Assembly: GCA_949299565.1 (NCBI GenBank)
Contig: OX437086.1
Location: 742,919 to 791,560 of the forward strand
Direction of reading: 5' to 3'
DNA length: 48,642 nucleotides
DNA from: an uncultured Bacillota bacterium
GTDB lineage: Bacteria > Bacillota_I > Bacilli_A > RFN20 > CAG-826
The notes beneath the pieces are model-generated. The model worked only from the letters and a program-made list of their open reading frames with translations, had not been told where the DNA came from and did not search any database. The translations under genes were made by a program, and so were the position numbers. Of this stretch, positions 6,318-25,364 are shown in pieces; within the stretch, counting starts at the first letter, position 1; the number at the start of each line of letters is the position of its first letter.

Positions 6318-6334
6318 TTAAAATGTTCTTTCTT

Positions 6335-9300: not shown

Positions 9301-9457
9301 AGTCGCTTCCGCCACTCGTCGTTGAACTATCGCTCATGCTGCTAGAATTCGAATCATTAAAAGAACTAGAAGCACTGCTACTTATGTCTTGGCCGTTACA
9401 TCCGCTTAAAACTAATGCGAGAATGGCCGAAGATAAAGCCAATACCTTTCCTTTCAT
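6335..9457 (-). CDS. Type I pullulanase surface lipoprotein (GH13, CBM41-CBM48)
   Basis: This 1040-residue protein cuts alpha-1,6 branches of starch or pullulan at the cell surface. The lipobox is LSGC (Cys20), followed by a Ser/Gly/Thr linker. A CBM41 module follows (TVRIYYHNDTSDY near 75), then intermediate beta domains and a CBM48-like module (TFKVWSPVASSVSIHL near 340). The type I pullulanase signature YNWGYNP is present. The GH13 motifs are region I DVVYNH near 590, II GFRFDLMGC near 662, III VYGEGW near 692 and IV SCHDNYTLYD near 795, giving a complete triad. The gene is preceded by GGGGG before AAAT-ATG and follows the 550-residue amylase by 25 nt. It is paralogous to the pullulanase at 16648-19338 but longer. 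Confidence 0.95.
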   Translation of the reverse strand: MKGKVLALSSAILALVLSGCNGQDISSSASSSFNDSNSSSMSDSSTTSGGSDSSSTIEEPPVETPLPENWQGTVRIYYHNDTSDYANRRLWVWDNDVDGKIIGELEFDNQTEPDAYGVYKDIDFSEAPWSTTYHTSISFIIKMAGTWADQSQDVVCSLDDFYSNVTTDSDGRELITIYAYDIGGNQVAATHARELALGDRIGSLSFTDWRTLHVEGTGQDDGRPDEEIGIVSSYDLYGFDQSYYLMDSLDQTRHKNDYLLASGSPNAKEFDITFTEDIAMNTDYILEARMSSNPSLTKTLGATFDLLYDDPKFISDYTYDGDDLGVSWDGDVPTFKVWSPVASSVSIHLYYSGTPNSLAQREYEIYGSDNGTTVPMTLSDHGVWVLTNPRQLSLYRYYTIEAIVAGGTVELVDPYAISTGINGQRAAILTPEQLSATDPSGFRESVAGLATDYPLDSPNNLTVYEVHIRDFTIDETWVSNENNPRGTYPAFVESGTSYAGVSTGFDSLLELGVNAVQLLPVFDQDNDERTIYQTVNGEVTSTLPGYNWGYNPWNFNVVEGSYSSDPYSATQRMLEYKELVQILADNGIRTIMDVVYNHMSSVGNNAFNKLMPRYYFKVAEDGSYIDETGVHNTFNTERLMASRFVVDSVCFWAEEYGIKGFRFDLMGCIETSTMRDVKDALYDIDPEIVVYGEGWRGSGSPSDTQAGIYNAYRDLADNGKGSVGVFNDCGRDGLKGNTTWGSVAPSYGFMSQGANDLNPDTLYNAATVYLGENRHMTQNEVPVNSYPDQTVNYVSCHDNYTLYDQLNYCYYAGNGASTDENPGVKEATLATTAFVLMSQGIAFIHGGEEILRQKLMYEGDPYWDAIEENDYVTVDDNVRLIRNSYAYGDAVNSYKWDRKAEFKDYFDKYAEACQTRARLLDEGILGVDYDTIQGSYTSDWGTELKYTRCWDDMVSPLTSGGYREVLAVQTEFSKMPSGGNDVYVVLGGRMNGETRSLGMGQGQLEVLYSTTAEAGSTISVGASNTIDVSEYQMMIVRRIS

Positions 9458-9482
9458 ATTTCCCCCTTTTTTATTTAAGTAT

Positions 9483-11135
9483 TCAACCGATAAGCACCGA
9501 AGAAGTGGGCTGAATGGTTAAAGCGTCGTTTTCTAAATGCGAAAGCGCATCATCAGCTTGGACATCTTCAATGATACTGAGACCGCCTGGAACTTTTATC
9601 GTCTGCGCCTCAGTGGCTTTTGAGTGGAACAAATAATATTCGCTCCCCTCATGAGTTATCTTGAGACACATGACATTATCTTCTAAAGCGGTTTCATTAC
9701 CCCAAAGCGTCATATCGCATTCACTGTATTTCCCATATTGGAAAAGTTCATTATGCGTGTTTCGGATGTAAATCAATTTACGAATATGGTTATAGAGGCT
9801 CTTCGAATCTGCTTTTGCCTCTGCGACACCGGTTGTCACTTGCATCTCGGAGTCGTTGTAATTTCCGGGATTGTCGCAGCGCGTTTCGTCGCCACCCCAA
9901 ACCATCGCTAGACGCCGAGCGTAGTCCTGTGAATCGCTGCTGGAACGGCTGCCCCATAAATCAATCTCCGAGCCATAATAAAGCCACGGCGTTCCCGGAG
10001 TCAAAATCGTTAAAGCAAAGGCTAATTTTCTTCGTGAAACCGCATCGGCGCGTTGTCCACGAATCGTTGGATTCGCCCTATTCGTATCGTGATTGTCAAT
10101 AAACATCGCTAACTGCGAAGTCGAAGAAGCGCTTTCAACTCCCGTTTGAGCATTAACCAAAGCTTCGCTGTAACGATTCCAAGAACTGCTGATGCTGACA
10201 GCAGCGCCAGGACCATTGCCGCGTGTTTCGGCAGTCGGAAAATTAAAGAAAGTCAAGCCGCTCTCAGCATATTGATTAATGCCGCTTTGAGTCGGTGAAC
10301 TCTCCCATGCCTCGCCGATCAAATACGCGCTTGGCTTAATGCTCCAACAATATTCGCCAAATTCACGGCAAAATTCAGTGTTTTTGCCTGTATCATTGAA
10401 GAAATAATAACGAACAGCATCTAAACGAAAGCCGTCAATGTCGTGATCGATTAGCCAAAAGGAAGCGATGCGTCTAATTTCGTCAATAACGGCAGGATTC
10501 GCCAAATTTAATTCAGGCATGCCAGATGAAAAATTAGCTTCATAATAAGCACCGTTTTGCTGATTTCGCTGATAGCCGCTTTTATAAGTATCGGACCAAA
10601 CATACCAGTCCTTCTTGCTATCGCTAGAAGTGTTGTTGTTGGCGTAGTCCTCTACCGATTGCTGGAACCAAGCGTGGGCAGTCGATGTATGATTGATGAC
10701 TAAGTCGAGGATGATTTCGATGCCGAGTTCATGAGCAGAACTCACAAGACTATCCAAGTCCTCCAGAGTCCCAAAACTTGCGTCAATTGCATAATAGTTC
10801 ACGCAGTCGTATTTATGATAAGAAGGAGAAGGAAAAATCGGAGTCAACCAAACACGTTTAATTCCTAATTCGCGAAGATACGGCAATTTCTCTTCAATGC
10901 CTTTGAGATCGCCGGTTCCGTCACCATTGCTATCTTTAAAAGAGCCAACAAAAATTTCATAACCAACGCCTTCGCGCACACCGGCAGGTAACTCTGAAAC
11001 CGGAAAACTTGACGACGGGTTGGAAGGCATTGTTTCTGAACTATTCGTTGGACCCTGACAACCAGTTGCAGCCACGCTCATAATCGTTCCAAGAAAAAGG
11101 GCAAACGCCCTTTTGAAAGAATTTAATGTTTTCAT
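9483..11135 (-). CDS. Alpha-amylase/alpha-glucosidase-family (GH13) lipoprotein
   Basis: This 550-residue enzyme has a lipobox ATGC (Cys26), a short linker and a compact GH13 catalytic domain starting GVGYEIFVGSFKDSNGDGTG. Region I DLVINHT lies near 145, II GFRLDAVRY near 236, III IGEAWES near 275 and IV IDNHDTNR near 348, so all catalytic acids are present. A short beta-sandwich C domain follows. No carbohydrate-binding module is visible, so it may act on short soluble maltodextrins rather than granules. The ATG overlaps the malG stop by one base (TAATG), which ties this enzyme directly to the transporter. Alpha-amylase and oligo-glucosidase activities cannot be separated from sequence alone. 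Confidence 0.92.
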   Translation of the reverse strand: MKTLNSFKRAFALFLGTIMSVAATGCQGPTNSSETMPSNPSSSFPVSELPAGVREGVGYEIFVGSFKDSNGDGTGDLKGIEEKLPYLRELGIKRVWLTPIFPSPSYHKYDCVNYYAIDASFGTLEDLDSLVSSAHELGIEIILDLVINHTSTAHAWFQQSVEDYANNNTSSDSKKDWYVWSDTYKSGYQRNQQNGAYYEANFSSGMPELNLANPAVIDEIRRIASFWLIDHDIDGFRLDAVRYYFFNDTGKNTEFCREFGEYCWSIKPSAYLIGEAWESSPTQSGINQYAESGLTFFNFPTAETRGNGPGAAVSISSSWNRYSEALVNAQTGVESASSTSQLAMFIDNHDTNRANPTIRGQRADAVSRRKLAFALTILTPGTPWLYYGSEIDLWGSRSSSDSQDYARRLAMVWGGDETRCDNPGNYNDSEMQVTTGVAEAKADSKSLYNHIRKLIYIRNTHNELFQYGKYSECDMTLWGNETALEDNVMCLKITHEGSEYYLFHSKATEAQTIKVPGGLSIIEDVQADDALSHLENDALTIQPTSSVLIG

Positions 11136-12055
11136 TAGCCCTTAACAGCTCCACCGGTAACGCCTGAAACATAATATTTCTGCATAAACATAAAGATGAG
11201 GGTTGTCGGAATGGCGACAATTACCGCACCGGCGCAGAATGAACGCCAATAGGCGGGGCGCGAAGGCATATCACCAGAGTTGAGCATTGCCCACAATGTC
11301 TTAGCGACTGTCCAGTTCGTCTTCTCAGGAGTTTGTCCGCCCATGAGGAAACTTGACGTAACATATTCGCCCCAAGGTGACATGAAGGCTGTCAAAGCGA
11401 CGTTGACGACAATCGGCTTCGAAAGCGGCAAAGTAATCTTATAGAAGATTTGGAAACGCGTCGCGCCATCAACCATTGCTGCTTCATCGATTTGCCGCGA
11501 GATCGTATCAAAGAAACCTTTCGAAATGTAGTAATTCATTCCGGCGCCACCGCAATAAATGATGACGAGGGCCCAAAGATTCTGCGAAAGACCGATCATT
11601 CCGAAAACTTCTTTTAAAACGATGAGGGTGATAAAACCAGGGAACATGCCAAGAATCAAAATGACTCGCATCATCTTTGTACGACTCTTGAAGCGCAAAC
11701 GCGAGAAGGCATAAGCGGCCATCAAAGTGAAGAGCGTCGAAACGATCATGACAACGATTGAAATCCAAATGGTGTTGAGGAAGGCTCCGGGATAGAAAAC
11801 GCCATTTTCAACGTAGCCGAAGAAGTTGTAATCGCTTGCTACCAGCTGCCCGTTCCTTTCAATCGTGTTTGTAAACAATTGAACGTAGGGATCCGTGCTC
11901 CAAGAAATCGGCATAAAACGGACGGAAGAACCTGATCCCGTTTCGCCAGAGAAACTTTGAAGAATTAACCAAATGAGCGGGAAGACCCACACGACCACCA
12001 TAAAGGCTAAGACAACGTAAACAATAGTGTCGCCAACAATTTTCTTTGCACGCAT
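11135..12055 (-). CDS. malG: Maltodextrin ABC transporter permease MalG
   Basis: This is a 306-residue inner-membrane permease of the carbohydrate-uptake (CUT1) type. It has an N-terminal helix (VYVVLAFMVVVWVFPLIWLI), an extracytoplasmic loop and five further helices. The cytoplasmic EAA loop EAAMVDGATRFQIFYKITLP docks the ATPase. With MalF it forms the channel for maltodextrins delivered by MalE. It is coupled to both neighbours by one-base TAATG overlaps (malF upstream, amylase downstream). The ATPase is not in the window, so a shared MsmX/MalK-type subunit encoded elsewhere is likely. Confidence 0.94.
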   Translation of the reverse strand: MRAKKIVGDTIVYVVLAFMVVVWVFPLIWLILQSFSGETGSGSSVRFMPISWSTDPYVQLFTNTIERNGQLVASDYNFFGYVENGVFYPGAFLNTIWISIVVMIVSTLFTLMAAYAFSRLRFKSRTKMMRVILILGMFPGFITLIVLKEVFGMIGLSQNLWALVIIYCGGAGMNYYISKGFFDTISRQIDEAAMVDGATRFQIFYKITLPLSKPIVVNVALTAFMSPWGEYVTSSFLMGGQTPEKTNWTVAKTLWAMLNSGDMPSRPAYWRSFCAGAVIVAIPTTLIFMFMQKYYVSGVTGGAVKG

Positions 12056-14832
12056 TATTGGAAATCCTCCTCGTTCTTAACCGCGCCTAAACGTCCATAA
12101 ACGATAAGCGAGAAGAAAGCACAAACAATGAAGACCATCAAGCCGATAATGGCGGCAAGCGAGTAGTCCTGTCGATCGTTTGTCAGTTTATATAACCACG
12201 TAATTAAGAGATCGGTCTGACCGGCCGGAAAAACAAGGTTCGGGTCACCGCTTGTCGGTCCGCCTCCTGAGAGGAAGTAAATAACGTTGAAGTTATTGAT
12301 ATTACCGACAAATGTCGTAATAAGCGAAGGTCCAGTCACGAAGAAGATATAAGGCATGGTAATTGAGACCAATTGCCGGAAAGGACCAGCGCCATCAATC
12401 TGAGCCGATTCATATAAATCATCAGGAATGTTCATCAAAATACCGGATGTCGAAAGCATCGTAAACGGCACGCCAATCCATATGTTAACGATGATAATCG
12501 TGATTTTCGGCCATATAGCACTATTGACCGAAGAACCGGTACCACCTAAAAGCGGAGGAGCGTAGGCACTCCAAACGCCTTCATTCCAAGTGCCCCAACC
12601 AAAGAATTTCGATAATCCATCGGCATAGAAATCTTGATTCTTCAACCACGTTCCGATGATTCCGCCATTCCCTAAAAGTCGATTCATGACAAGCAAGGAA
12701 ATAAATTGCGGAACTGCGATTGTGATAACAAAGAGAGTTCGCCACACTTTCGTGTATTTAATGCTCTTGCGGTTGATGATAAGAGCCAAGATGATGCCGA
12801 AGAAGTAGTTAGTGAAAGTAGCGAAGAATGCCCAAATTAAGGTCCACCAAAGAAGCGTGAAGAAAGTATAGGAATAGGAACCTGTGCCCGTGCTTCCAAA
12901 GGTGCCGAAAAGCATACCGAAGGAATCAAGCGACCAAATAAAGCGTCGATTTGTGTGATATTGATCCCAGTTGGTGAAACTAACAAAGATTGAACAAACA
13001 AGCGGCAAGATGACAGTCACAACGCAAGCAATCGTTGGAAGCGATAAAACGGTTATTGCAAATTTTTCGTCAGCAAATTCCTTAACTCGCTTTAAACTCC
13101 GCGTCGGTTGCCCATGGAAGGGAACAGTCTTTCTAAAAGACAAGACCGGTTCAAGATTAGTGATGACACGCGATAAATAAAGAGAGCCTTCGCCTGTTTT
13201 CTTCTTTTCAAGTTCGTTAGCGTGCTTTAAATTCCGATAAACTTCGCGCGCCAAAGAAGGATCCATCGCGTAATCATTTTCAAGCGTATGAATCAAATAT
13301 GATTTACCCTGCTTAAAAAGATCATCGAATTTAGTCGGACTTTGATAAATTTCCAAAGCCGTGTTGTAACCATTGATGACGTCTTTATAATTGGTGTCTT
13401 CAAACTGGTCGCGTTGAAGAGTATAGGAATCTTCCAATTTCTTAAAGGCGGCAAGGGCCAAATTCCGTTGAGTGTCTTCAGTCAAAGCAGAATTTTTCTT
13501 ACGGATTTTATCAATTTCGAAAATCGCAAGATGCGTAACTTTTTTGGCGATCGGAAGCGGCAATTCAAAAGCTCCGACGATCGAGGAAACACGTTTGCGA
13601 ACTGAAAGACGAGCATTCCACGGAAGCGGAATTTCGTTATTCTTGATTGAAACCGGATCCTGAGCAAAAAGCGCCTTATAGAGCAAATCAGCGCGCGAGA
13701 AAGCGTTTATTATTTGGCGATAATCGCGCATGACGGCCAAATAATCGTTGTATTTGTCAAATTTATGCGAGAATTTGATTAATTCCAAGCGAGTCTCTTT
13801 TATGACGGCTTCGCGTCCATAACGTTCCTCGGGAGCCTTCGGATAATATTCCAAATATCTCTCAAGAGGCGAAAAATAGTCATAATGAGCGAGCAAACTA
13901 TTCCTCAACGGATCATAAATCTCTGCGTACATCCAATCGCGAATTCTAATCTTTAATCTTTGATAACGACTGCGAAGCGCTTTTTCGCTCGGAACATTAA
14001 TTCGTTTGAAAGGAATCCTAGCGATGTAATAGGAAGCAAGACGCGAATACCCGTATTTTTCACGGGCTAATTTTCTTATCTTGAAAGAAGAAAGATGACT
14101 GAAATCTTCTTCAACTGCTGAAGGATGAGAAAGAATATTAAGCCCAGCCATCCGCGCTTGTTTATAATCGGCTTCTTTCGTTATTTGCCAGTTATCATAC
14201 ATCGCTTTGATAGCGATAACGTAGAGAATAACGAAAGCGATGATAATGAAGATTGTGAGGAAACCCATGACATAAGCTTCCGTATTTCTTGTGACTGAAT
14301 CCCAATATCCGGATGTCGGATTTTGAGCGGCGCCAATGTTGAAACTGAAGAAGTCAATCAAATTGTTGATTCCGAGCGGAACACCTGCACCGCTGAAAGG
14401 AATAAACATGAACATCAAGAAGGCGATTTCAAGAATCAAGAAAACAAAGCCATCAAGATATTGCTTTCTTTTTATCTGTCCAACGCCAAGGAAGAGGAAT
14501 GACAGTTTGCCAGCCCAATCCACTTCACGGAAAATTCGGAATGCGCCTCTAAAAACTTTGCCAATTCCAATAAAAAGTTTGAAGATTCCAACAAAAATGC
14601 CTTTGATGATAACACCAACAGCTCGAAGAACCTCAATTACAATGCCAAGCGAGAAAGCCAGAAGCTTCACGGCAAATTTAAGAAAGCCCATTCCGAATCT
14701 AACATAAAATGGATCGGGTTTTCCTGGTGGCGCGCCAATTGATCCGGCGGCCGAAAAATCTAAACCAGAATCGCGTTGCTCTTGATCCAACGTCGAAGAA
14801 GCAGGCGTTTCGTTTGTGTTCATATCGCTCAT
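12055..14832 (-). CDS. malF: Maltodextrin ABC transporter permease MalF with large N-terminal extension
   Basis: This is a CUT1 permease of 925 residues, about twice the usual 430-510. Residues 46-215 are hydrophobic, with the module GVGQIKRKQYLDGFVFLILE at 116-135 that also heads some Bacillota MalF/MdxF proteins. Residues about 215-585 form a long charged, mainly helical soluble segment that I cannot assign to a family. The MalF core starts at FAITVLSLPTIACVV near 591, and the EAA loop ESAQIDGAGPFRQLVSITMP lies near 817. No stop or frameshift interrupts the frame and codon use is like its neighbours, so it is a real single polypeptide. It follows malE after a strong hairpin and overlaps malG by one base. 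Confidence 0.9.
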   Translation of the reverse strand: MSDMNTNETPASSTLDQEQRDSGLDFSAAGSIGAPPGKPDPFYVRFGMGFLKFAVKLLAFSLGIVIEVLRAVGVIIKGIFVGIFKLFIGIGKVFRGAFRIFREVDWAGKLSFLFLGVGQIKRKQYLDGFVFLILEIAFLMFMFIPFSGAGVPLGINNLIDFFSFNIGAAQNPTSGYWDSVTRNTEAYVMGFLTIFIIIAFVILYVIAIKAMYDNWQITKEADYKQARMAGLNILSHPSAVEEDFSHLSSFKIRKLAREKYGYSRLASYYIARIPFKRINVPSEKALRSRYQRLKIRIRDWMYAEIYDPLRNSLLAHYDYFSPLERYLEYYPKAPEERYGREAVIKETRLELIKFSHKFDKYNDYLAVMRDYRQIINAFSRADLLYKALFAQDPVSIKNNEIPLPWNARLSVRKRVSSIVGAFELPLPIAKKVTHLAIFEIDKIRKKNSALTEDTQRNLALAAFKKLEDSYTLQRDQFEDTNYKDVINGYNTALEIYQSPTKFDDLFKQGKSYLIHTLENDYAMDPSLAREVYRNLKHANELEKKKTGEGSLYLSRVITNLEPVLSFRKTVPFHGQPTRSLKRVKEFADEKFAITVLSLPTIACVVTVILPLVCSIFVSFTNWDQYHTNRRFIWSLDSFGMLFGTFGSTGTGSYSYTFFTLLWWTLIWAFFATFTNYFFGIILALIINRKSIKYTKVWRTLFVITIAVPQFISLLVMNRLLGNGGIIGTWLKNQDFYADGLSKFFGWGTWNEGVWSAYAPPLLGGTGSSVNSAIWPKITIIIVNIWIGVPFTMLSTSGILMNIPDDLYESAQIDGAGPFRQLVSITMPYIFFVTGPSLITTFVGNINNFNVIYFLSGGGPTSGDPNLVFPAGQTDLLITWLYKLTNDRQDYSLAAIIGLMVFIVCAFFSLIVYGRLGAVKNEEDFQ

Positions 14833-14866
14833 ATAAAGCCTCTCCCTTTCTTCTTAGGACTTTCAA

Positions 14867-14904
14867 GAACAAGGGGCAACCATTGTACGTGGCGCCCCTT
14901 GTCC
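14867..14904 (-). terminator. Strong hairpin between malE and malF (attenuator or mRNA-stabilising)
   Basis: On the minus strand GGACAAGGGGC pairs with GCCCCTTGTTC (11 bp, one G-T) around a 16-nt loop. It lies 25 nt after the malE stop and 34 nt before malF. The downstream tract (TTGAAAG) is too poor in T for a full terminator. By analogy with other malE-malF junctions it may protect the malE 3' end or cause partial termination, so that binding protein exceeds permease. Confidence 0.7.
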
Positions 14905-14929
14905 CGAATACATCAACTAATTTTGTGAA

Positions 14930-16291
14930 TTAAAGATCAGGATTGCTGACCCAGCCAGTCTGATTGACAACATTGCCAAGGACATCGGCAGCACCACCGG
15001 TGTATTCACCCCAACCGCTTTGGAGATAAATAGCTTGTCCGATAGATTTGACAGGATCCCAGAAATCGGCAGTAACATTGACACCTTGAGCGATTGTCGC
15101 ACCATCAGCAAACATTTCATTTAAGATTGTGAGGTGTGGGTTATCAGTATATGGCGTCTCGTTGACGACGAGGTTGGTAACACCATGACCTAAAGTATCG
15201 CGACGGAGTTGCTGCGATTCTTGATTGGTGAGATAAGCAGCAAATTCTTTTGCTAGAACAGCGCGATCGCCAGTAAGACCTAAGGTCTCAGACTTGACAC
15301 CAACGTGTTTGTAACCAAGGAAGGTTCTAAGAGCTTGACCATTAAATGTCGGAAGCGGAGCGCATTCAATGTCTTCATTGAGAGCAACTGCATCGTCGTA
15401 ATGGTTCCAGCAAATGAAGGCACCAGTTCTTGTGGCAGCACCTTCTTGTAATCCAGCATCAATATCACCGGCATCTAAAGCTTCTTGAACAACCCAAGTC
15501 TCGCGATATTGATCGTAAAGGGTCTTGAAGGACTCAACGCCTTGAACAACCGTTTCGTTCAAGAAGTTAGCAACAATATCGCCATCAGCGTTGATTTCCC
15601 ATTTGCCACCGACAGCTGTCAAGAATGACGGGGTGTACCAAGAATCAGCGATTTCATAATAGAAGAGAGAACCGCTTTCTTGGCAAGCAGCTAAAATTCC
15701 TTCAAGCGTTGAAGCTTGTGTGGGAGTGATAATCGATGAATCGTAATAGAGAACGTAGCCATTGTCGTTACGATACGGGAAGCCATACGCTGTTTCGTCA
15801 ACACGGCCAGCATCAACGGCATCTTCGCCGTTTTCTTCAATAGCGGTTGCCACTTCTTCATCAGTGAGCGGAGCAATCATTTCCGCCTCGACCATTTGAC
15901 GAATGTTGTCGTCAGCCAAGCAGAAGACATCAGCTGTCGCTTCCTGCTCCTGATTAGCCAAGTTAGCGACTTCACCTTCACCGGGGTTAGCAATTACCCG
16001 GATATCGGCTGTTGCATATTCCGGATTGTCCTCTTTGAAATTGGTGATGATGGTGCTCATGTAGTTATTGTCGGTTGATGGGCACCAAATTGAGAGAGAA
16101 AGAGTACCACTTCCGCCTCCTGACGAGACTCCGCCGCCACTGGTGTTACTGCCAGTGCTGCTAGTTCCTCCTCCGCCGCCACTGGTGTTACTGCCAGTGC
16201 TGCTAGTTCCTCCTCCGCCGCCACAGCCCGCTAAAACAATCGCAGCTACAGCGCCAGCGGCCAGGAGAAGCCCCTTTTTTTTGTTAGCCAT
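14930..16291 (-). CDS. malE: Maltodextrin-binding lipoprotein MalE
   Basis: This 453-residue family 1 solute-binding protein has a basic signal peptide ending in lipobox LAGC (Cys23). A Gly/Ser/Thr linker with an exact internal duplication follows, then the binding fold from LSLSIWCPSTDNNYMSTII. The NFKEDNPEY and FICWNHYDDA segments fit the sugar-binding class. It should capture maltodextrins released by the surface glycosidases and pass them to MalFG. It is the first gene of the operon, and the ribosome-binding site AAAGGAG precedes the ATG at about 9 nt. Length exceeds the family mean only through the linker. Maltodextrin specificity is inferred from the operon. Confidence 0.92.
   Translation of the reverse strand: MANKKKGLLLAAGAVAAIVLAGCGGGGGTSSTGSNTSGGGGGTSSTGSNTSGGGVSSGGGSGTLSLSIWCPSTDNNYMSTIITNFKEDNPEYATADIRVIANPGEGEVANLANQEQEATADVFCLADDNIRQMVEAEMIAPLTDEEVATAIEENGEDAVDAGRVDETAYGFPYRNDNGYVLYYDSSIITPTQASTLEGILAACQESGSLFYYEIADSWYTPSFLTAVGGKWEINADGDIVANFLNETVVQGVESFKTLYDQYRETWVVQEALDAGDIDAGLQEGAATRTGAFICWNHYDDAVALNEDIECAPLPTFNGQALRTFLGYKHVGVKSETLGLTGDRAVLAKEFAAYLTNQESQQLRRDTLGHGVTNLVVNETPYTDNPHLTILNEMFADGATIAQGVNVTADFWDPVKSIGQAIYLQSGWGEYTGGAADVLGNVVNQTGWVSNPDL
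16129..16224. repeat. 42-bp tandem direct repeat (2.3 copies) in the malE linker
   Basis: Two identical 42-bp copies (16129-16170 and 16171-16212) plus 12 bases of a third encode GGGGGTSSTGSNTS twice just after the lipobox cysteine. The unit is 14 codons, so gain or loss keeps the frame and changes only tether length. The copies show no divergence, which implies a recent duplication or active homogenisation. Confidence 0.95.
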
Positions 16292-16369
16292 TAATTAACG
16301 CTCCTTTCTAAATTTACATGGAGTCGCCTAAACGAACCCCTTCGTAAATTAATTGCTTAACATGCCTAC

Positions 16370-16397
16370 ATTTTACTCGAAAGAAAAAATCAGTAAA
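16370..16397 (-). promoter_or_regulatory. Candidate proximal malE promoter
   Basis: On the minus strand TTTACT and TAAAAT are separated by 16 nt. Initiation would give a leader of about 70 nt ending in the malE ribosome-binding site. It is one of two candidates in the 356-bp gap between the second pullulanase and malE. Confidence 0.4.
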
Positions 16398-16427
16398 TAT
16401 CGAAAGTGGAAGGGCTTACATTCTTTC

Positions 16428-16442
16428 TGAAAGCGCTTTTAT
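16428..16442 (-). promoter_or_regulatory. cre-like operator (CcpA/LacI-family) upstream of malE
   Basis: The minus-strand 15-mer ATAAAAGCGCTTTCA matches the catabolite-responsive element WTGNAANCGNWNNCW at all fixed positions but one (G to A). It overlaps the -10 of the distal malE promoter candidate, which would suit repression. Confidence 0.6.
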
Positions 16443-16468
16443 AGAAAAAAAGAGAAAAATATCAGCAA
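16438..16468 (-). promoter_or_regulatory. Candidate distal malE promoter overlapped by two operator-like sites
   Basis: On the minus strand TTGCTG (16463-16468) lies 18-19 nt before CTATAA/TATAAA (16438-16444). The -10 overlaps the cre-like site and the -35 abuts the 15-bp inverted repeat at 16467-16481. The spacer is slightly long, so the promoter itself is only moderately supported. Confidence 0.45.
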
Positions 16469-16481
16469 ACATCGGATGTTT
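16467..16481. repeat. 15-bp perfect inverted repeat upstream of the malE promoter
   Basis: AAACATC-G-GATGTTT has 7-bp half-sites around one base and touches the distal -35. The size and symmetry suit a dimeric repressor or activator operator. It differs from the cre type, so a second regulator is possible. Confidence 0.55.
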
Positions 16482-16549
16482 ATTTACATAAAAAACCATA
16501 AAAACAAAAATTATTTTTTCTTGCGAGATAGTAGAAAAAGACCTTTGCT

Positions 16550-16574
16550 TTTATAGATTTCGTCAATCTATAAA
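16550..16574. repeat. AT-rich 10-bp inverted repeat with 5-nt spacer
   Basis: TTTATAGATT and AATCTATAAA flank TCGTC in the gap between the second pullulanase and malE. There is no T-tract in a useful place, so it is not a terminator. It may be another operator, or part of an RNA structure of read-through transcripts from the upstream pullulanase gene. The rest of this 356-bp gap outside the listed sites shows nothing recognisable. Confidence 0.5.
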
Positions 16575-16599
16575 GAGCGTTTTAAGATTTCTGCTTGAC

Positions 16600-16636
16600 A
16601 TAAAAAAGCACCCACTTCCTTAGAAGCGGGCGCTTT
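16600..16636 (-). terminator. Rho-independent terminator of the second pullulanase gene
   Basis: The 13-bp stem AAGCGCCCGCTTC / GAAGTGGGTGCTT (two G-T pairs) has loop TAAG and is followed on the minus strand by TTTTATG. It isolates the second pullulanase from the malE operon. Confidence 0.9.
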
Positions 16637-16647
16637 CTTAATAAGAC

Positions 16648-19338
16648 TTAAATATTTGAACTTATGACGATTTGGAAGGGATCGAATGAAATCTCACCAC
16701 CTCCGCCATAATTGGTGTCAAGTAAAATTTCTTCCCCGCTGAAGTCAATATTTATATCGGTGGTTCCATGTCCGTTTCTTGCAGCAAAATGCAAGTAATT
16801 GCCGGCGTCATCAACTATCCGATATTCAATGTGAGTAGCCTCTACTTCAACCGTCATCTGTTCTTCAATTTGTGCCTCGTTCAAATGAAGAAGAAGATTG
16901 CTAGTTTTAAGAGCGATGATTGTTCTCATAGCTTCAGCCAAGTCGCTATGTTCAAGCAAAAGATCATAATGGAAGGCATTGACGTCATACCCTGATTGAT
17001 AAGAGTTAGAGTCGCCTCCCTTGCTGCGCAAGAATTCTTCGCCTCCTTGCATGAAACTCGTTCCTTGGGAAAGAAGAGCCACGCTTTCAGCGAGGAGAGC
17101 CATTTTCTTCACTGTCTCTTCGTCCTCGATTTCATTCCCGTAATAGAAACGATCGTAAAGAGTGTAATTATCGTGACACGTCACGTAGTTGACTGTTTTA
17201 TCAGGGTCACTTTGCGACTGACCGGCTAGATATGTGATGCCTCTACTTCCCAGCGCGATTTTATTGAGCCACGTGCTATTGGTGGTTCCGGAGGTCGTAC
17301 TGACCCAAGCACGGTCAGTTGGCGCTGAAAGTCCGCCGGCAATCAAAGCATCGCGCATTTGATCATTAAAGCCACCATACCCATCCCAACTGCGGGCATT
17401 GGATTGAAGAGCCGCTTCACTCGACGGAAGAACATCGGTGCCGCCGGTCCAAGGCTCTCCATAGACAGCAAACGATGAATTGATTTCTTTTGTGGCAACG
17501 CTCACTTCGTGCATTGTTTCCATGTCGATACAGCCCATAAGGTCAAAGCGGAAACCGCCAAGTTTATATTCTTCAGCCCAGAAAGAAGCACTATCAACAA
17601 TGAACTTTCTAACCATCGAAAGTTCAGAAGCGACAACGTTTCCGCATCCGCTAGCGTTATTGAGACTGCCATCATTATTCGCGCGGAAATAATAGCCAGG
17701 GCATAACACATCGAAATTAGAGCCGGTTGCGCCGTTCACATGGTTATAAACAACGTCCATGATGATGCTGATGCCGGCTTCGGCATAGGCTTTAACGAGT
17801 TTTTTGAATTCAATGATTCGTTGATAACCGTCGGTTGGATCTGACGAATATGATCCCTCTAGGACATTATAGTTGAGGGGGTTATATCCCCAGTTAAACG
17901 CCGGAAGATCTTCTCCTTCTTGCGGACGCTCCTCATTAGCTTGATCAAAGAACGGCAAAATTTGAACAGCGTTGATATTCATCTCTTTCAGATGATCAAA
18001 GCCAGTCTTAACACCTTGATAATTCGTGCCTTCAAGCGCGAAGCCTTCATAAGTAGCCCTTAATTCATCGGGACCGCCCCACGTCTCATCGCTTGTTAAA
18101 TCAGCAATATGAAGTTCATAAACAACTAATTCTTTCCGATCATAGTGCGGTATTTCTAAATTTTGGAAGTCCAAAGAACTGTTGATTTCTTCAAAATCGA
18201 CAATTTGTCCGCGTAGACCATTAAGGCCAGCGCTTTTGGCATACGGATCAACGACTTCACGTCCAAGCGGATAGGTGTTTGATGTTGCAAAATACGTGTA
18301 ATATGAACCGGCTAAATCGCCACTTACTTCCGCTGTCCAGACTCCATTTTCAGTAAGAGTCATTGGGTACTCTAAATATTCATCGCTACCGATTGTTTCA
18401 TCGAGAGCTTCCGGGGTGCCGTTTTCGTATATCCGTAAAGAAATTGTTTTCGAAGTCGGAGACCAAACTTTAAATGTTGTTTTGCTCGGTGTATAAGTCG
18501 CACCAAGATCATCGCCATTATATGTATAGTTCTCAGCGAAATCGCTCATCCGATAAAGACCGTAATTGGAAACGTTTGCTTTTAAAATGTGGCTGCTTTC
18601 AGCAAAGGTTACTTCTACTTCATAGAGACTTCGGAAGTCAGGCGTCACTTCAAAATTCGCGAAAATAATATTCCAAGTCGTTCTCGGCGTTGCGTTCGTA
18701 CCGTCAATCACGAGATTCCCGTCCTGATATACACGATAGGAACTGACAGGAACCGTCGTTTCGACATGAATATTTCCGACTTCATTAAAGACTGCAGAAC
18801 TTATTATTTCAGCTTGTTCTAAATCAGCGTTGATGTAAATATTTGGGTCCGCAGTCATCAAATAGACGTGATATATGTCATTTTCATCGATCTCGAAGTT
18901 GTCGAGGTCTATAAAGCGATCACCGTCAGGATCTTTGCTCACCCAAGTGACAGTCCCGCCTTCTGGCGATTTATTTTTGACGATGAAACCGAGCCCGTTA
19001 GTTGCTACATCCGTCCAATGGCTGAGCGGATAAGCAGCAATCGCACCATATTCATCTTGGCCGTTGAACGTCAACTCTTCTCCTTCTCCAGCATTTGGTT
19101 CCCAAAGCCACAAAGCCCAATCATCATATTCGCCGTCGTTGCGATGATAATGGAAAGAGATCGATGGTTCCTCATAAGCCGGCGGATCAACATAAATTGG
19201 TTCTTCGCTTGTTACGGTTGAAGAAGATGGTGATGAAGTTTGGTTGCTAGAACTCGATGGAGTTTCACCGCAGCCACTCAAAAGAGTTGGCAGCAAGATA
19301 AAAACACCGAGAAATGCCCCAAAATGCTTTTTCTTCAT
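16648..19338 (-). CDS. Type I pullulanase surface lipoprotein (second paralogue)
   Basis: This 896-residue debranching enzyme has lipobox LSGC (Cys23) and a Ser/Thr linker. A clear CBM41 module follows (ISFHYHRNDGEYDDWALWLW near 60), then intermediate domains and a CBM48-like module (TFKVWSPTSKTISLRIY near 290). The pullulanase signature FNWGYNP is present. The GH13 regions are I DVVYNHV near 530, II GFRFDLMGC near 598, III VYGEPW near 628 and IV TCHDNYTLYD near 721, so the triad is complete. It is transcribed alone: an extended -10 promoter and a perfect cre match precede it and a strong terminator follows. The GGGGG before AAATT-ATG ribosome-binding site resembles that of the other pullulanase. 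It probably acts with the three operon glycosidases. Confidence 0.95.
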   Translation of the reverse strand: MKKKHFGAFLGVFILLPTLLSGCGETPSSSSNQTSSPSSSTVTSEEPIYVDPPAYEEPSISFHYHRNDGEYDDWALWLWEPNAGEGEELTFNGQDEYGAIAAYPLSHWTDVATNGLGFIVKNKSPEGGTVTWVSKDPDGDRFIDLDNFEIDENDIYHVYLMTADPNIYINADLEQAEIISSAVFNEVGNIHVETTVPVSSYRVYQDGNLVIDGTNATPRTTWNIIFANFEVTPDFRSLYEVEVTFAESSHILKANVSNYGLYRMSDFAENYTYNGDDLGATYTPSKTTFKVWSPTSKTISLRIYENGTPEALDETIGSDEYLEYPMTLTENGVWTAEVSGDLAGSYYTYFATSNTYPLGREVVDPYAKSAGLNGLRGQIVDFEEINSSLDFQNLEIPHYDRKELVVYELHIADLTSDETWGGPDELRATYEGFALEGTNYQGVKTGFDHLKEMNINAVQILPFFDQANEERPQEGEDLPAFNWGYNPLNYNVLEGSYSSDPTDGYQRIIEFKKLVKAYAEAGISIIMDVVYNHVNGATGSNFDVLCPGYYFRANNDGSLNNASGCGNVVASELSMVRKFIVDSASFWAEEYKLGGFRFDLMGCIDMETMHEVSVATKEINSSFAVYGEPWTGGTDVLPSSEAALQSNARSWDGYGGFNDQMRDALIAGGLSAPTDRAWVSTTSGTTNSTWLNKIALGSRGITYLAGQSQSDPDKTVNYVTCHDNYTLYDRFYYGNEIEDEETVKKMALLAESVALLSQGTSFMQGGEEFLRSKGGDSNSYQSGYDVNAFHYDLLLEHSDLAEAMRTIIALKTSNLLLHLNEAQIEEQMTVEVEATHIEYRIVDDAGNYLHFAARNGHGTTDINIDFSGEEILLDTNYGGGGEISFDPFQIVISSNI

Positions 19339-19751: not shown

Positions 19752-20065
19752 GGCGTTTCTTTCCTTTCTAGGCTTAGATGCTTGGAATATGCCTCCGCTA
19801 AGCCTTCAATTATGACGTAGATAGTTTCAATTACCGTCTCGTCATGCTCTGATAGCTCTTTCTTGGCCTTGAACAAGAAATAACCATCGCTTTCTTTCCA
19901 TTCACTTTCACATGGATCTAACTCAAGAGCGTTCAATGCACCCGGTAAAACCCCGCTGACGGCCGCGCATACGAGATCATGCCCATAAGGCGCAGAGTTG
20001 GCGTGACCTTTTACTTCAAGAGCAAAGAATTTCTTATTTTGATAAGTGAAAGTAACCTTGATCAT
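19748..20065 (-). CDS. prp: Ribosomal-processing cysteine protease Prp (YsxB)
   Basis: Prp removes the N-terminal extension of L27. The 105-residue protein contains the diagnostic GHA ([12 protein letters not shown], catalytic His about 20) and DLVCAAVSG (catalytic Cys about 33) motifs, spaced as in the family. It lies between rplU and rpmA as in most Bacillota, overlapping rplU by one base (TAATG) and rpmA by an ATGA-type overlap. Enzyme and substrate are therefore made from one message. Confidence 0.96.
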
Positions 20066-20373
20066 TAAGCTTCAATCTTTTCGATAAGTAAGCAAGTATA
20101 CGGCTGACGATGACCTTGTTTTTTGCGTTCGTTAGCTTTGGCCTTGTACTTATAAACAACCAATTTGGGGCTCAAACCATGTTTCTCGATTTTGGCTTTG
20201 ACAGTTGCACCTTCGACATATGGGTGACCGACAGTAAGTTTCTCACCGCCGAGCAAAAGCACATGATCCAAAGTGATTTCGCTGCCTAAAGGAGCTTCCA
20301 GCTTCTCGACAAAAATTTTGTCGCCAACGCTGACTTTGATTTGCTTACCGCCAGTTTCGACGATTGCGTACAT
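20065..20373 (-). CDS. rplU: 50S ribosomal protein L21
   Basis: L21 is a beta-barrel large-subunit protein that binds 23S rRNA. The 102-residue product has the typical start [19 protein letters not shown], the [14 protein letters not shown] segment and a basic C-terminus with [17 protein letters not shown]. The ribosome-binding site AGGAGG lies 6 nt before the ATG. It is the first gene of rplU-prp-rpmA and is preceded by a structured leader likely to mediate autoregulation. Confidence 0.97.
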
Positions 20374-20520: not shown

Positions 20521-21210
20521 TTATTTTTCCATCATTTGATGCTCTAAAAACGAAAAATAGCCATCAGAGTTGACTATTAAATGGTCTAAAAGACGAAGTC
20601 CAAGTTTCCGCGCTTCCTTTGCAATTAAGTTCGTGGTCAATAAATCGCTTTTAGAAGGAAGAAGAGAACCCGATGGATGATTATGAACAAGCACAAACTT
20701 TGTGGCGCCATGTTTCAAAACGGCATGAAATAGAAACCTAAAGTCAAACGACAAAGAAGCATCGTTCCCTTGCATAAGCTCGCGATAGCCAAGAAAAGTT
20801 CCGCGTTTATCGTACAAAAATAAAGAAAGAACTTCCTCTTGGCTAGCGTTAGACAACGCATAGGCAGACGCCTTTTCTGGATTATATTGCTCAGGAGTTT
20901 GCGCTTGCTTGAGGCGCTTTGCAATCTCGAAAACCGATGCTAAGCGCAAACCTTGAACTTTAGAAATTCCACTAATCTCTGAAAAATCATCTGAAGTGGC
21001 TTTTTGCATGTTGTAAAGACATCCATACCTTTGAAAAAGATTATCAACGATTGTTAAAACATCGAAGTTTGCTGTGCCGGAACTGATGATTAATGCCAAT
21101 AATTCACGCTCGTCCAATATATTTAGGCCGAAAGCCTTAGCTTTTTCGCGCGGACGTAATTCTTTTGGAAGATGACTTAGACGCTTAACGCCACGAGAAG
21201 GTCCAGCCAC
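20521..21210 (-). CDS. radC: RadC family JAMM-domain protein
   Basis: The 229-residue product has the helix-hairpin-helix region (FSEISGISKVQGLRLASV) and the zinc-binding JAMM motif VHNHPSGSLLPSKSD near residue 170, the RadC signature. RadC proteins are widespread but their activity is uncertain; early links to DNA repair were not upheld for the E. coli protein. The only possible start is GTG at 21208-21210, inside the 3' end of the 60-codon gene upstream. The GGAGGAG serving as its ribosome-binding site is within that gene's coding sequence, so expression of the two is linked. Confidence 0.93.
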   Translation of the reverse strand: MAGPSRGVKRLSHLPKELRPREKAKAFGLNILDERELLALIISSGTANFDVLTIVDNLFQRYGCLYNMQKATSDDFSEISGISKVQGLRLASVFEIAKRLKQAQTPEQYNPEKASAYALSNASQEEVLSLFLYDKRGTFLGYRELMQGNDASLSFDFRFLFHAVLKHGATKFVLVHNHPSGSLLPSKSDLLTTNLIAKEARKLGLRLLDHLIVNSDGYFSFLEHQMMEK

Positions 21211-21367
21211 CCGGTATTTTCACTCCTCCAGCTGACGATTTGAGTAACTTATACACCACGATTGCAACAACGGCGATTACTAAAACCGCCATCACTGACG
21301 TTAGAGTCACAGCTTCACCGGGACGATGAAGCTCAAGTTCCCAATCTGCTAATTCGCGACCACTCAT
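21185..21367 (-). CDS. 60-residue single-span membrane protein of unknown family, between valS and radC
   Basis: I do not recognise this family. The product begins MSGRELADWELELHRPGEA, has one hydrophobic helix at residues about 20-39 (VTLTSVMAVLVIAVVAIVV), and ends in a basic, glycine-rich, aromatic tail (YKLLKSSAGG, then VKIPGGWTFSWR). Charge bias puts the acidic N-terminus outside and the basic C-terminus inside. The ribosome-binding site is GGAGGTGAT about 7 nt before the ATG, essentially perfect and among the strongest in the window. That argues strongly for a real, well-translated gene. It lies 62 nt after valS and overlaps radC by 26 bp. Its C-terminal codons supply radC's ribosome-binding site. 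Function is unknown. Confidence 0.8.
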   Translation of the reverse strand: MSGRELADWELELHRPGEAVTLTSVMAVLVIAVVAIVVYKLLKSSAGGVKIPGGWTFSWR

Positions 21368-21429
21368 TATTTATCACCTCCACCATTTTTATAGCGAGGT
21401 CAATAGGAAAGTGACCGCCAATTACTCGT

Positions 21430-24030
21430 TTACTCATCATTTTCTAAAGATGAAATTCGGCCACGAATCTCTGATAAAAGTTTCTTGTTTGCCTCTAATT
21501 TATCTTTTTCCAATCTTACCTTTGCACCCGGAGCTTTTGCTAAAAAGTTCGGATTATTGAGCATTTTTTCACCGCGTTCAACTTCAAGCTGCGTTTTATT
21601 TTCCTCGACTCTAAGACGCGATAAAAGCGCGTTTTTATCGATTTCTTCTTGAACTTGAAGTTCATAGCCTTCTTGGTATAAGAAAGTTGGTGTTTTAAGT
21701 GCGGCATTCGAAACAATCACTTTTTTAGCAAAAGCGAAGCGTTCAAGGAAAACCTCAACACCCTTAAAAATTGAATGTGGAGCAATTGAAACAACAATCG
21801 GGGCATTCGGCGCTAAATGTTCACGACTTTTGTAATTGCGGATGTCTTTGAGCATTTTCATCAAGACGCTGCTGGCTCTTGCGCTTTTTTCATCTTTAAA
21901 TTCTGATCGATATTCTGGATAAGTCTCTAACATTATGCTTTCAAGATGACTTGGAAGCGAAAGATACATTTCCTCAGCAACAAAAGGAGCGTAAGGATAA
22001 ATCATTAAAATGATGTTTTTAACAACGTAGTAAAGGGTGTCGCGTGTCGCTTTCTTAACTTCTTCATCCTCGCTTTGAAGAGCAACTTTGCTCATCTCAA
22101 GATAAAAAGAGCAGAAATCATCATAAACAAAGTCATAAAGAACCGATGAAGCTTGACCGAATTCATATTCATCCATCCGTGTGGTCACTTTCTTAATCGT
22201 CGTCATCAAACGATCAAGAATTCCCTTATCAAGCGTGCTCAATTTGGCGCCAGATGGGTCATTCGGCAAATAATCCTCGCCTAAAACCATTTCGACATAA
22301 CGAACAGAATTCCAAATTTTGTTGAGATAGTTCTGAGCAGCCTGCACTTTCTCTTCGCTATAGCGCATATCAAGGCCGGGTGTCGAATTCGTGGTAATGA
22401 AATACCTTAAGGCGTCAGCGCCATACTTTCTAATGACTTCGAGCGGATCGACGCCGTTCCCAAGCGATTTGCTCATCTTGCGGCCGAGCTCATCACGAAT
22501 AAGACCGTGAATCACAACTTTTTTGAAAGGAATCTGGCCGGTGAAATGGAGCGACTGAAAGACCATTCTCGAAACCCAAAAGAAAATGATATCGTAACCT
22601 GTTACAAGCACAGATGTCGGAAAATATCGACAAAAATCTGGAGAAGACGTATCGGGCCAATTAAGAGTCGCGAAAGGCCAAAGCGCGCTCGAAAACCAAG
22701 TGTCTAAAACATCAGGATCTTGCTCATAAAGATTGGGGTCAGGATTTTCATAGGCAACTAGTACTTCTTTAGTATCTTTTCGGTAATATGCTGGTATTCT
22801 ATGTCCCCACCATAATTGTCTAGATACACACCAGTCATCGACATTTTCCATCCACTGTTCCAAAACTTTGGCGAAACGTGTCGGCAAAAACTCAATGCCA
22901 TTCTTTGATCTCTGAGTTTCCAAGACTTTTTCAGCCAATGGTTTCATTCTCACAAACCACTGTTTAGAAAGCATCGGTTCAACGACGCTTCCGCTTCTTT
23001 CACTATGGCCAACACTATGGACTATCTCTTCGTTTTTTTGTAAATGTCCGTCGCTCTTAATTTGCTCAACCAACGCCTTCCTTGCCTCGTAGCGATCCAA
23101 TCCAGCATAACGACCACATTCTTTAGTTAAACGTGCATTTTCGTCAAAAATTTTACGAAGAGGAAAATTATATTTTTTAGCAAGATTAAAGTCGTTAGGA
23201 TCGTGCGCTGGCGTGCATTTCATAACCCCCGTTCCGAAACTCGTGTCGACATATTCATCGGCCATAATCGGCAGTTTCTCCCCGTTCGCGGGATTAATGA
23301 CTTCTTTCCCGATGTATTTTTGATAACGTTTATCATTCGGATTTACAAAAACAGCAACGTCACCAAACATCGTTTCAGGACGCGTCGTCGCGACCACTAA
23401 CTTTTCATCGCTATCAACCACGTCATAATAGAAATAGAAAAATTCGCCTTTATCATCTTGGTGAACGACTTCGATGTTGCTGAGCGCGGTTTTTAATTCA
23501 GGATCCCAATTGATGATTCTTTCGCCTTGATAGATGAGCCCTTCGTTATATAGGGTTATAAAAACCTTTTTTACCGCCTTTGCAAGGCCTTCATCAAGCG
23601 TAAAACGTTCACGCGAATAGTCTAAAGAAAGGCCAAGAGCCGCCCACTGGGAATGAATGTTTTTTGTATATTCTTCCTTCCATTTCCAAGTCTCTTCCAA
23701 AAAGGCTTCACGTCCTAATTCGTAACGGTTTTTTCCTTCTTCGCGCAACTTTTCCTCAACTTTGGCTTGCGTGGCGATTCCGGCATGATCGACTCCGGGA
23801 ACCCACAAAACATCGTAACCTTTCAAGCGTTTATAACGCGCGATGATGTCCATCGGGATTGTATCCATCGCATGGCCTAAATGCAGTTTTCCGGTTACGT
23901 TTGGCGGAGGAATTACTAACGAGAATGGTTTTTTTCTTTTGTCGAGACCGCCTTCAAAATATTTTCTTTTTTTCCAACTTTCATATTTGCCTTCTTCGAC
24001 TTTTTGCGGGTCATAACGTTTATCAAGCAT
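21430..24030 (-). CDS. valS: Valyl-tRNA synthetase
   Basis: This class I synthetase charges tRNA-Val and edits Thr. The 866-residue length is normal. It has the HIGH-type motif PPNVTGKLHLGHAMD near residue 45, the CP1 editing domain (TTRPETMFGDVAV), KMSKS as GRKMSKSLGNG near 520 (TGLDMRYSEEK follows), the anticodon-binding domain and the C-terminal coiled coil (ENKTQLEVERGEKML). It is the first gene downstream of a T-box leader and is followed by the 60-residue membrane protein and radC. Confidence 0.98.
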   Translation of the reverse strand: MLDKRYDPQKVEEGKYESWKKRKYFEGGLDKRKKPFSLVIPPPNVTGKLHLGHAMDTIPMDIIARYKRLKGYDVLWVPGVDHAGIATQAKVEEKLREEGKNRYELGREAFLEETWKWKEEYTKNIHSQWAALGLSLDYSRERFTLDEGLAKAVKKVFITLYNEGLIYQGERIINWDPELKTALSNIEVVHQDDKGEFFYFYYDVVDSDEKLVVATTRPETMFGDVAVFVNPNDKRYQKYIGKEVINPANGEKLPIMADEYVDTSFGTGVMKCTPAHDPNDFNLAKKYNFPLRKIFDENARLTKECGRYAGLDRYEARKALVEQIKSDGHLQKNEEIVHSVGHSERSGSVVEPMLSKQWFVRMKPLAEKVLETQRSKNGIEFLPTRFAKVLEQWMENVDDWCVSRQLWWGHRIPAYYRKDTKEVLVAYENPDPNLYEQDPDVLDTWFSSALWPFATLNWPDTSSPDFCRYFPTSVLVTGYDIIFFWVSRMVFQSLHFTGQIPFKKVVIHGLIRDELGRKMSKSLGNGVDPLEVIRKYGADALRYFITTNSTPGLDMRYSEEKVQAAQNYLNKIWNSVRYVEMVLGEDYLPNDPSGAKLSTLDKGILDRLMTTIKKVTTRMDEYEFGQASSVLYDFVYDDFCSFYLEMSKVALQSEDEEVKKATRDTLYYVVKNIILMIYPYAPFVAEEMYLSLPSHLESIMLETYPEYRSEFKDEKSARASSVLMKMLKDIRNYKSREHLAPNAPIVVSIAPHSIFKGVEVFLERFAFAKKVIVSNAALKTPTFLYQEGYELQVQEEIDKNALLSRLRVEENKTQLEVERGEKMLNNPNFLAKAPGAKVRLEKDKLEANKKLLSEIRGRISSLENDE

Positions 24031-24284: not shown

Positions 24285-25364
24285 TCAAGAATAAATTCCT
24301 AGCATTATTTCGCGTTCATCTAACGTTTTTCCTGCGTGATGAGCCTTGAATATCGAATGGGGAAGGCGACTATCAAAAAGAATTTTCCTGTCGTACGTAT
24401 AAGCGAGGAAATCGCCGAGACTTTCTTCGAATAAAGAATTAAAAGGCTCTGGTCCTAAAATCTTCTCTTTTTTGACTTCTTCTCGATCCTTTAAAACAAA
24501 AGTTGGAAAATATTTTTGGAAGTTATTGTAAAATCTCTTTTGAGCCCCTGGCTTTACAAAGAAGGTAGGAAGGCGTCCCTCGATCGCAAACGTCCCGTCT
24601 AAATCGGCGATGATCTCCGGATATTTTGCGATATCAAGGTATTCTTCAACATCGATTAATCCATGATCCGCCATCGTCAACAAAAGAGTTTTTGGATGGT
24701 CTTTGTGGAAATCAGAAAGCAAATCATTTATTTCTTTAATTTTTTGATCGACAATCGGACTCATCGTGCCATATTCATGCATGCTTCCATCCGGTTCAGG
24801 ATAATAAAAATAGATAAAGTCGTATCCTTCTTGAAGACGTTTATCAAGAAGCGAAAAGCCATCTAAAAGATTCTTATAACCATCATGGGCAATATAATCC
24901 GGAAATAAAGAGCAACTCCGATAGCCCTTCTTCTCAATGCGCTCAATCAATGAAGAATATGGCGATAATTCAGCAACGCTTTTTTCGCTGGAAACTTCTC
25001 CTTTATAAATATCTTTGTTCGAAAAAACTTCAACGTAACGCTTTGGATGCAAAAGACGCATCGTCCAGCCTAAATATCCGTTTTCGCTAGGATATTTGCC
25101 GCTTAAAAACGCACTGGTAGAGGCAACAGTCGTTGCGGGAGTGACTGCCTCGATCACCATGAATTTGTGCTTCAGAAGAGATTCTGCGCTCTCTTCATGT
25201 TTCTCTAAAATCGCTCGCCCGAGGCCATCGAAAAGGAAGACGATCAAAGGACGACCTTTTTCTTTTTCTAATCTCTCTTTTAAAGGAGGGATGATCTCAT
25301 GAAAATGTTCAGCCTCATATAACGAAGCGATTGTCGATGAGAGATGCACTAAATCGTAAATCAT
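24285..25364 (-). CDS. Alkaline phosphatase superfamily protein (nucleotide pyrophosphatase/phosphodiesterase type)
   Basis: This 359-residue predicted metal-dependent hydrolase of the type I phosphodiesterase branch has the metal ligand in LFDGLG near 45 and the nucleophile Thr in TPATTVAST near 76. Further ligands lie in YPEPDGSMHEYG near 190 and in ADHGL near 233. It has no signal peptide or transmembrane helix, so it is cytoplasmic. The ATG lies 18 nt after the engB stop, with GGGAG somewhat far upstream, so it is probably cotranscribed with engB. The physiological substrate cannot be told from sequence. Related proteins hydrolyse nucleotide or phospholipid-type phosphodiesters. Confidence 0.8.
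   Translation of the reverse strand: MIYDLVHLSSTIASLYEAEHFHEIIPPLKERLEKEKGRPLIVFLFDGLGRAILEKHEESAESLLKHKFMVIEAVTPATTVASTSAFLSGKYPSENGYLGWTMRLLHPKRYVEVFSNKDIYKGEVSSEKSVAELSPYSSLIERIEKKGYRSCSLFPDYIAHDGYKNLLDGFSLLDKRLQEGYDFIYFYYPEPDGSMHEYGTMSPIVDQKIKEINDLLSDFHKDHPKTLLLTMADHGLIDVEEYLDIAKYPEIIADLDGTFAIEGRLPTFFVKPGAQKRFYNNFQKYFPTFVLKDREEVKKEKILGPEPFNSLFEESLGDFLAYTYDRKILFDSRLPHSIFKAHHAGKTLDEREIMLGIYS

Follow-up and report, generated by a model that had tools for sequence, protein, structure and literature searches.

A conserved small-protein gene between valS and radC

The window analysed here, a stretch of 48,642 nucleotides, carries on its minus strand a gene of 60 codons with an ATG start, which we call smp (21185-21367). 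Its conserved upstream neighbor is valS (21430-24030, minus strand). Downstream lie radC (20521-21210, minus strand), which is absent at this locus in several relatives, and the conserved rplU (20065-20373, minus strand), followed by ysxB and rpmA. The smp and radC reading frames overlap, as the first-pass annotation of this DNA had noted; the overlap measures 26 nt, with the radC frame starting at GTG. That annotation had also described a near-perfect ribosome-binding site, and the Shine-Dalgarno sequence GGAGGTGAT (21373-21381, minus strand) indeed stands 5 nt before the ATG; it occurs once in the whole window, against 0.23 copies expected.

At E<=0.002, an smp homolog was detected for 86 of 97 relatives; among the 66 good-quality genomes (at least 90% complete) of the window's order, all but one have it, and many of the relatives' genomes are probably metagenome assemblies. 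The gene order valS-smp-radC-rplU-ysxB-rpmA is kept in most loci, and a Shine-Dalgarno sequence precedes the chosen start in nearly all smp copies. Between close pairs dN/dS ranges from 0 to 0.28, indicating strong purifying selection. Homologs, conserved synteny and low dN/dS together place the reading frame far above chance, and smp is a genuine, ancient gene. By the terms of the first-pass annotation, a lack of homologs in relatives or of purifying selection in this frame would have counted against it, and neither was seen. The window protein was assigned to no family by Pfam or NCBIfam, which returned weak matches only, and a search of the PDB with the smp profile gave only chance matches to transmembrane helices. 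The initial description of a real, conserved but unrecognized small membrane protein outside known families thus holds, with its homologs, its dN/dS and a single hydrophobic segment in agreement.

Several other features of the region were observed. An element of the form GTTGTCGCCCTCC...GGCCTCAACCG, located between smp and rplU and conserved just before rplU in five loci (L025, L027, L030, L034, and L044), resembles a ribosomal protein L21 leader; in the window itself, no Rfam family of the L21-leader type scored above threshold. Between valS and ysxC, a predicted alkaline-phosphatase/nucleotide-pyrophosphatase-like protein (24285-25364) is retained across many of the genomes in the window's genus. 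Positions 3594-19338 hold a cluster of several large alpha-amylase/pullulanase-like lipoproteins alongside the binding protein and the two permeases of a sugar ABC transporter, an unusual bulk for a 1.06-Mb genome.

The predicted precursor combines a leader, a membrane helix and a β-hairpin tail

In an alignment of 71 rows, the conserved positions are L6, E10, G17, G47, P52, G53, G54, F57, and W59. Counted back from G17, the first three occupy -12, -8, and -1 in the register of a double-glycine leader. Residues 1-17 (21317-21367, minus strand), which the first-pass annotation had described as an acidic N-terminus, are thus by register a double-glycine-type leader rather than a mature domain, with a predicted cut after G17. 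In the window protein the relevant residues are L6(-12), E10(-8), L11(-7), P16(-2), and G17(-1), with His at -4. Across 84 homologs from the order, Gly at -1 is invariant (84/84), Glu at -8 is present in 78, Leu at -12 in 73, and Leu or Met at -7 in 46.

This pattern agrees with published recognition motifs. Leu(-12)-x3-Glu(-8)-Leu(-7) is the consensus for ComA-type C39 proteases (PMC6363468), while LahT150 requires hydrophobic residues at -4, -7, and -12 (PMC10885120). The smp family shows the full motif, with L(-12), E(-8), hydrophobic residues at -7 and -4, and G(-1). In addition, nine family members match the NCBIfam lactobin/cerein bacteriocin model TIGR03949 (best E-value 4.5e-6), and seven match TIGR01847.

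Known C39 cleavage sites are GG, GA or GS. Position -2 is Gly in 33 of the 84 order members, Pro in 32, and Val in 10, so that many relatives have a true GG where the window genome has PG. Pro at -2, together with His at -4, makes cleavage in the window species somewhat less certain than in its GG relatives.

Downstream of the leader, residues 20-38 form the one strongly hydrophobic segment of smp (mean Kyte-Doolittle 2.91). An AlphaFold2 model built from a 22-row alignment (mean pLDDT 79) predicts a short leader helix at residues 8-14 and a long transmembrane helix at residues 17-43 (21239-21319, minus strand), in agreement with hydropathy. The tail, residues 47-59 (GGVKI-PGG-WTFSW region; 21191-21229, minus strand), is modeled as a β-hairpin with strands 47-51 and 55-59 joined at PGG, and it contains the conserved residues G47, P52, G53, G54, F57, and W59. 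The mean charge beside the helix is -0.6 before and +1.6 after it, which, by the positive-inside rule, suggests an orientation with the N-terminus outside and the C-terminus inside.

A C39 protease without an ATPase accompanies smp

A Peptidase_C39 domain is encoded in 88 of the 97 relatives, mostly in a single gene of about 400 codons. The window genome has one such gene, outside the window (G000:C1:694448-695605), directly upstream of ybeY-cdd-era-recO-glyS. Among 20 aligned C39 proteins, the catalytic residues C14, H89, and D105 are invariant. The C39 profile aligns to residues 16-350 of PCAT1, covering the C39 and transmembrane (TMD) domains (E 5.6e-16). The 389-aa C39 protein gave no match to ABC_tran, whereas proteins at the related locus in two other families, f20 and f17, do match. 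Judged from its sequence, the protein is a truncated PCAT, with the C39 and membrane domains but no ATPase. A single-sequence structure model of it was poor and unusable.

The smp and C39 genes usually lie in separate operons; in G004, G007, and G029, which belong to the window's genus, the C39 gene is found about 2 kb downstream of smp, shortly after rpmA. In G041, G095, and G075, C39 is apparently absent, which probably reflects assembly gaps since ybeY is likewise missing from these assemblies; in G051, a contig edge carries a fragment of a C39-membrane protein. The window genome also has, immediately ahead of its C39 gene, one for a large lipoprotein-like putative metalloprotease with an HEQGH motif (L124:4247-6409).

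The substitution of PG for GG raises the alternative that smp is not cleaved, its leader resemblance being vestigial in the window's genus. In its favor are the 32 PG and 10 VG sequences among the 84 order members. However, PG genomes, the window genome among them, still have the C39 gene, and its triad is intact wherever it was aligned; they also keep L(-12) and E(-8), and G(-1) never varies. We regard an uncleaved smp as unlikely.

The protease is reduced stepwise while the leader is retained

Class-level searches revealed full-length smp homologs in two further families, f20 and f25, whose gene content suggests that they are Erysipelotrichia-like. In both, smp lies near valS, and the gene directly after it is either radC or a SPOR-like gene followed by radC. 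The C39 gene that precedes ybeY in f20 encodes a complete PCAT of 660-690 aa (C39-TMD-NBD), with ABC_tran present. From there, the C39 proteins form a reduction series, with C39 plus TMD (390-430 aa), C39 plus one transmembrane helix (167-170 aa), and C39 alone (about 110-130 aa), encoded mostly directly upstream of ybeY. Families f2 and f4 of the window's order retain only the C39 domain, accompanied by a single helix or by no helix at all. Across the series the ATPase goes first and the membrane domain next, but the protease and the leader stay, which points to leader removal as the function kept by selection.

Copy number and gene context vary in some of these genomes. Two to four tandem or additional smp copies are present in some f20 genomes (G240, G334, and G412; L174, L215, and L216). 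Family f17 has full PCATs encoded in the rpsU-yqeY-ybeY-era region, with bacteriocin-like GG peptides next to them. At these loci (L201-L208) the small GG peptides are paired and have conserved cysteine-ending tails, such as ...RRITSNKYC and ...GFVHLKKCNK; the pair resembles a two-peptide system of the bacteriocin type that has been retained as part of the core genome.

Leader and protease are lost together

Family f25 includes 25 genomes with the peptide, 10 leader-bearing and 15 leaderless. The leaderless reading frames are about 39-45 aa long and start at the cleavage point, with a Shine-Dalgarno sequence directly before the ATG in most, and in several checked cases they are still directly upstream of radC. 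C39 was found in 9 of the 10 leader-bearing genomes and in none of the 15 leaderless ones (Fisher p 5e-6), or, counted by genus, in 6/7 against 0/9 (p 9e-4); these p-values overstate independence because the losses are related by descent. A tree of radC firmly supports a single loss, and three changes are required on the best tree, setting the number of losses at three or fewer.

The Pfam model detected the stand-alone C39 upstream of ybeY in six of the 10 leader-bearing genomes. Three further cases, missed by this model, had been classed as leader-bearing before their C39 was known, so that the leader predicted the protease: G473 and G504, where a profile of stand-alone C39 proteins located it next to ybeY, and G380, where it was found by inspection upstream of ybeY. 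In the tenth genome, G499, the leader is atypical and no C39 was found. Several leaderless genomes have a PhoH-like gene directly adjoining ybeY. In the f25 genomes without C39, G499 aside, the peptide lacks precisely its leader and begins at the predicted cleavage site.

Probably related peptides in Mollicutes

The mollicute-like genome G254, which uses code 4, has a gene for a GG peptide directly upstream of rplU-rpmA; its C39 transporter, of 686 aa, is encoded immediately before ybeY-cdd-era. Inspection of further mollicute genomes revealed GG peptides upstream of rplU. Of 21 f11 genomes sampled with a peptide profile, 20 had matches, and many of these matches were close to rplU; one of the matching genomes is that of Mesoplasma grammopterae. 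The mollicute and window peptides have in common their leader, their position, and a G-x-hydrophobic-K...W tail pattern, with no strong alignment, and it is from these three features that they appear homologous.

A 2019 study of JCVI-syn3A reported no candidate GG peptide for its C39 transporter 0401 or for other mycoplasma C39 proteins (PMC6609329). For want of such a substrate, 0401 was tentatively assigned to lipoate import (PMC6609329). The GG peptides upstream of rplU in related mollicutes are candidate substrates for these transporters.

Proposed function of the mature peptide

We consider it probable that the smp product is a precursor from which C39 removes the leader by cutting after Gly17, giving a conserved membrane microprotein with a housekeeping role. 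The C39 protease encoded elsewhere in the genome would recognize residues 1-17 and cut after Gly17, removing the charged 17-residue extension and leaving a peptide of roughly 43 residues. This peptide would span the membrane once, with its N-terminus outside and its β-hairpin tail (GxVKxPGGWxFxW) in the cytoplasm. As the ATPase of its transporter ancestor has been lost, the C39 protein of the window's order would act in maturation and not in ATP-driven export. In all these cases, even after loss of leader and protease, the mature peptide is retained, and it is thus the likely functional product. Its most likely role would be a housekeeping one in the membrane of its own cell, which conservation, single copy and housekeeping synteny favor over an antimicrobial one.

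An alternative is that smp is an exported bacteriocin or peptide pheromone, with another ATPase serving the C39-membrane protein. The leader does match bacteriocin models, the f17 transporters adjoin bacteriocin-like peptides, and the f20 transporter is complete. Yet smp is near-universal, vertically inherited and under purifying selection in a housekeeping operon, unlike variable bacteriocin loci, and no immunity gene was recognized beside it. The successive loss of ATPase and membrane domain from a retained protease, and the survival of leaderless forms, also argue against export, making this alternative distinctly unlikely.

The first-pass annotation had also proposed a role for smp as a small partner of RadC, and its placement of the gene between valS and radC holds for most loci. 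Adjacency to and overlap with radC are the usual arrangement, and the two genes stay together where valS has moved (L089 and L090), which favors smp as a membrane partner or substrate dedicated to RadC. However, in about ten genomes of the window's genus, smp lies between valS and rplU with radC not at the locus, and the mollicute peptides sit next to rplU. On this synteny we reject a RadC partnership as very unlikely; the evolutionary partner of smp appears instead to be the C39 protease at the ybeY locus. The Gly directly before the hydrophobic helix and the Glu at +1 also resemble a type IV pilin-like protein, but cleavage of that kind has a negligible probability and was rejected for lack of the enzyme: prepilin peptidase (PF01478) is above cut-off in only 2 of 97 relatives, and the window genome has none.

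The most likely reading remains that smp is a membrane microprotein, inherited vertically and matured by removal of its leader, rather than a RadC partner. The leader register, the protease triad, the missing ATPase, the deep synteny and the joint loss can be read directly in the genomes. Taken further, and with about an even chance of being correct, the pathway would be an ancient core one linking Mollicutes, the Erysipelotrichia-like families and the window's order, in which an exporter became a pure maturase and leader and protease disappeared jointly. If so, the mollicute peptides would supply the substrates that the mycoplasma C39 transporters have lacked, including the transporter kept in the minimal cell JCVI-syn3A, and would offer a direct candidate answer to the question of what those transporters act on. 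GG leaders and C39 proteases are familiar components of variable bacteriocin and pheromone loci. The pair described here would behave as a housekeeping set, retained through extreme genome reduction, and the stepwise paring of an exporter down to its protease would mean that leader removal, not export, is the retained function, for which we found no earlier description in the open-access papers searched.

Comparison with known systems

The smp precursor resembles class II bacteriocins and other GG-leader peptides (TIGR01847, TIGR03949, PF10439; ComC-type leaders) in its L(-12), E(-8), L/M(-7) and G(-1), in the GG of many relatives, and in its hydrophobic core. A C39 protease in the same genome, as is characteristic of GG-leader precursors, is likewise present, as one gene in the window genome. 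It differs from class II bacteriocins in being a core-genome, single-copy, vertically inherited gene with no immunity gene seen, and in its conserved PGG β-hairpin tail, the PG of the window's genus and its leaderless relatives.

The order's C39 protein is similar to PCAT/AMS transporters (PCAT1, LahT, and ComA) in its catalytic triad and in its membrane domain, alignable to PCAT1 16-350. In contrast to these, it lacks the nucleotide-binding domain, and some relatives lack the membrane domain as well. G254, like JCVI-syn3A with its transporter 0401, has a C39 transporter, encoded directly upstream of ybeY-cdd-era. While 0401 was reported to be without a GG-peptide substrate (PMC6609329), the related mollicutes examined here have GG peptides upstream of rplU.
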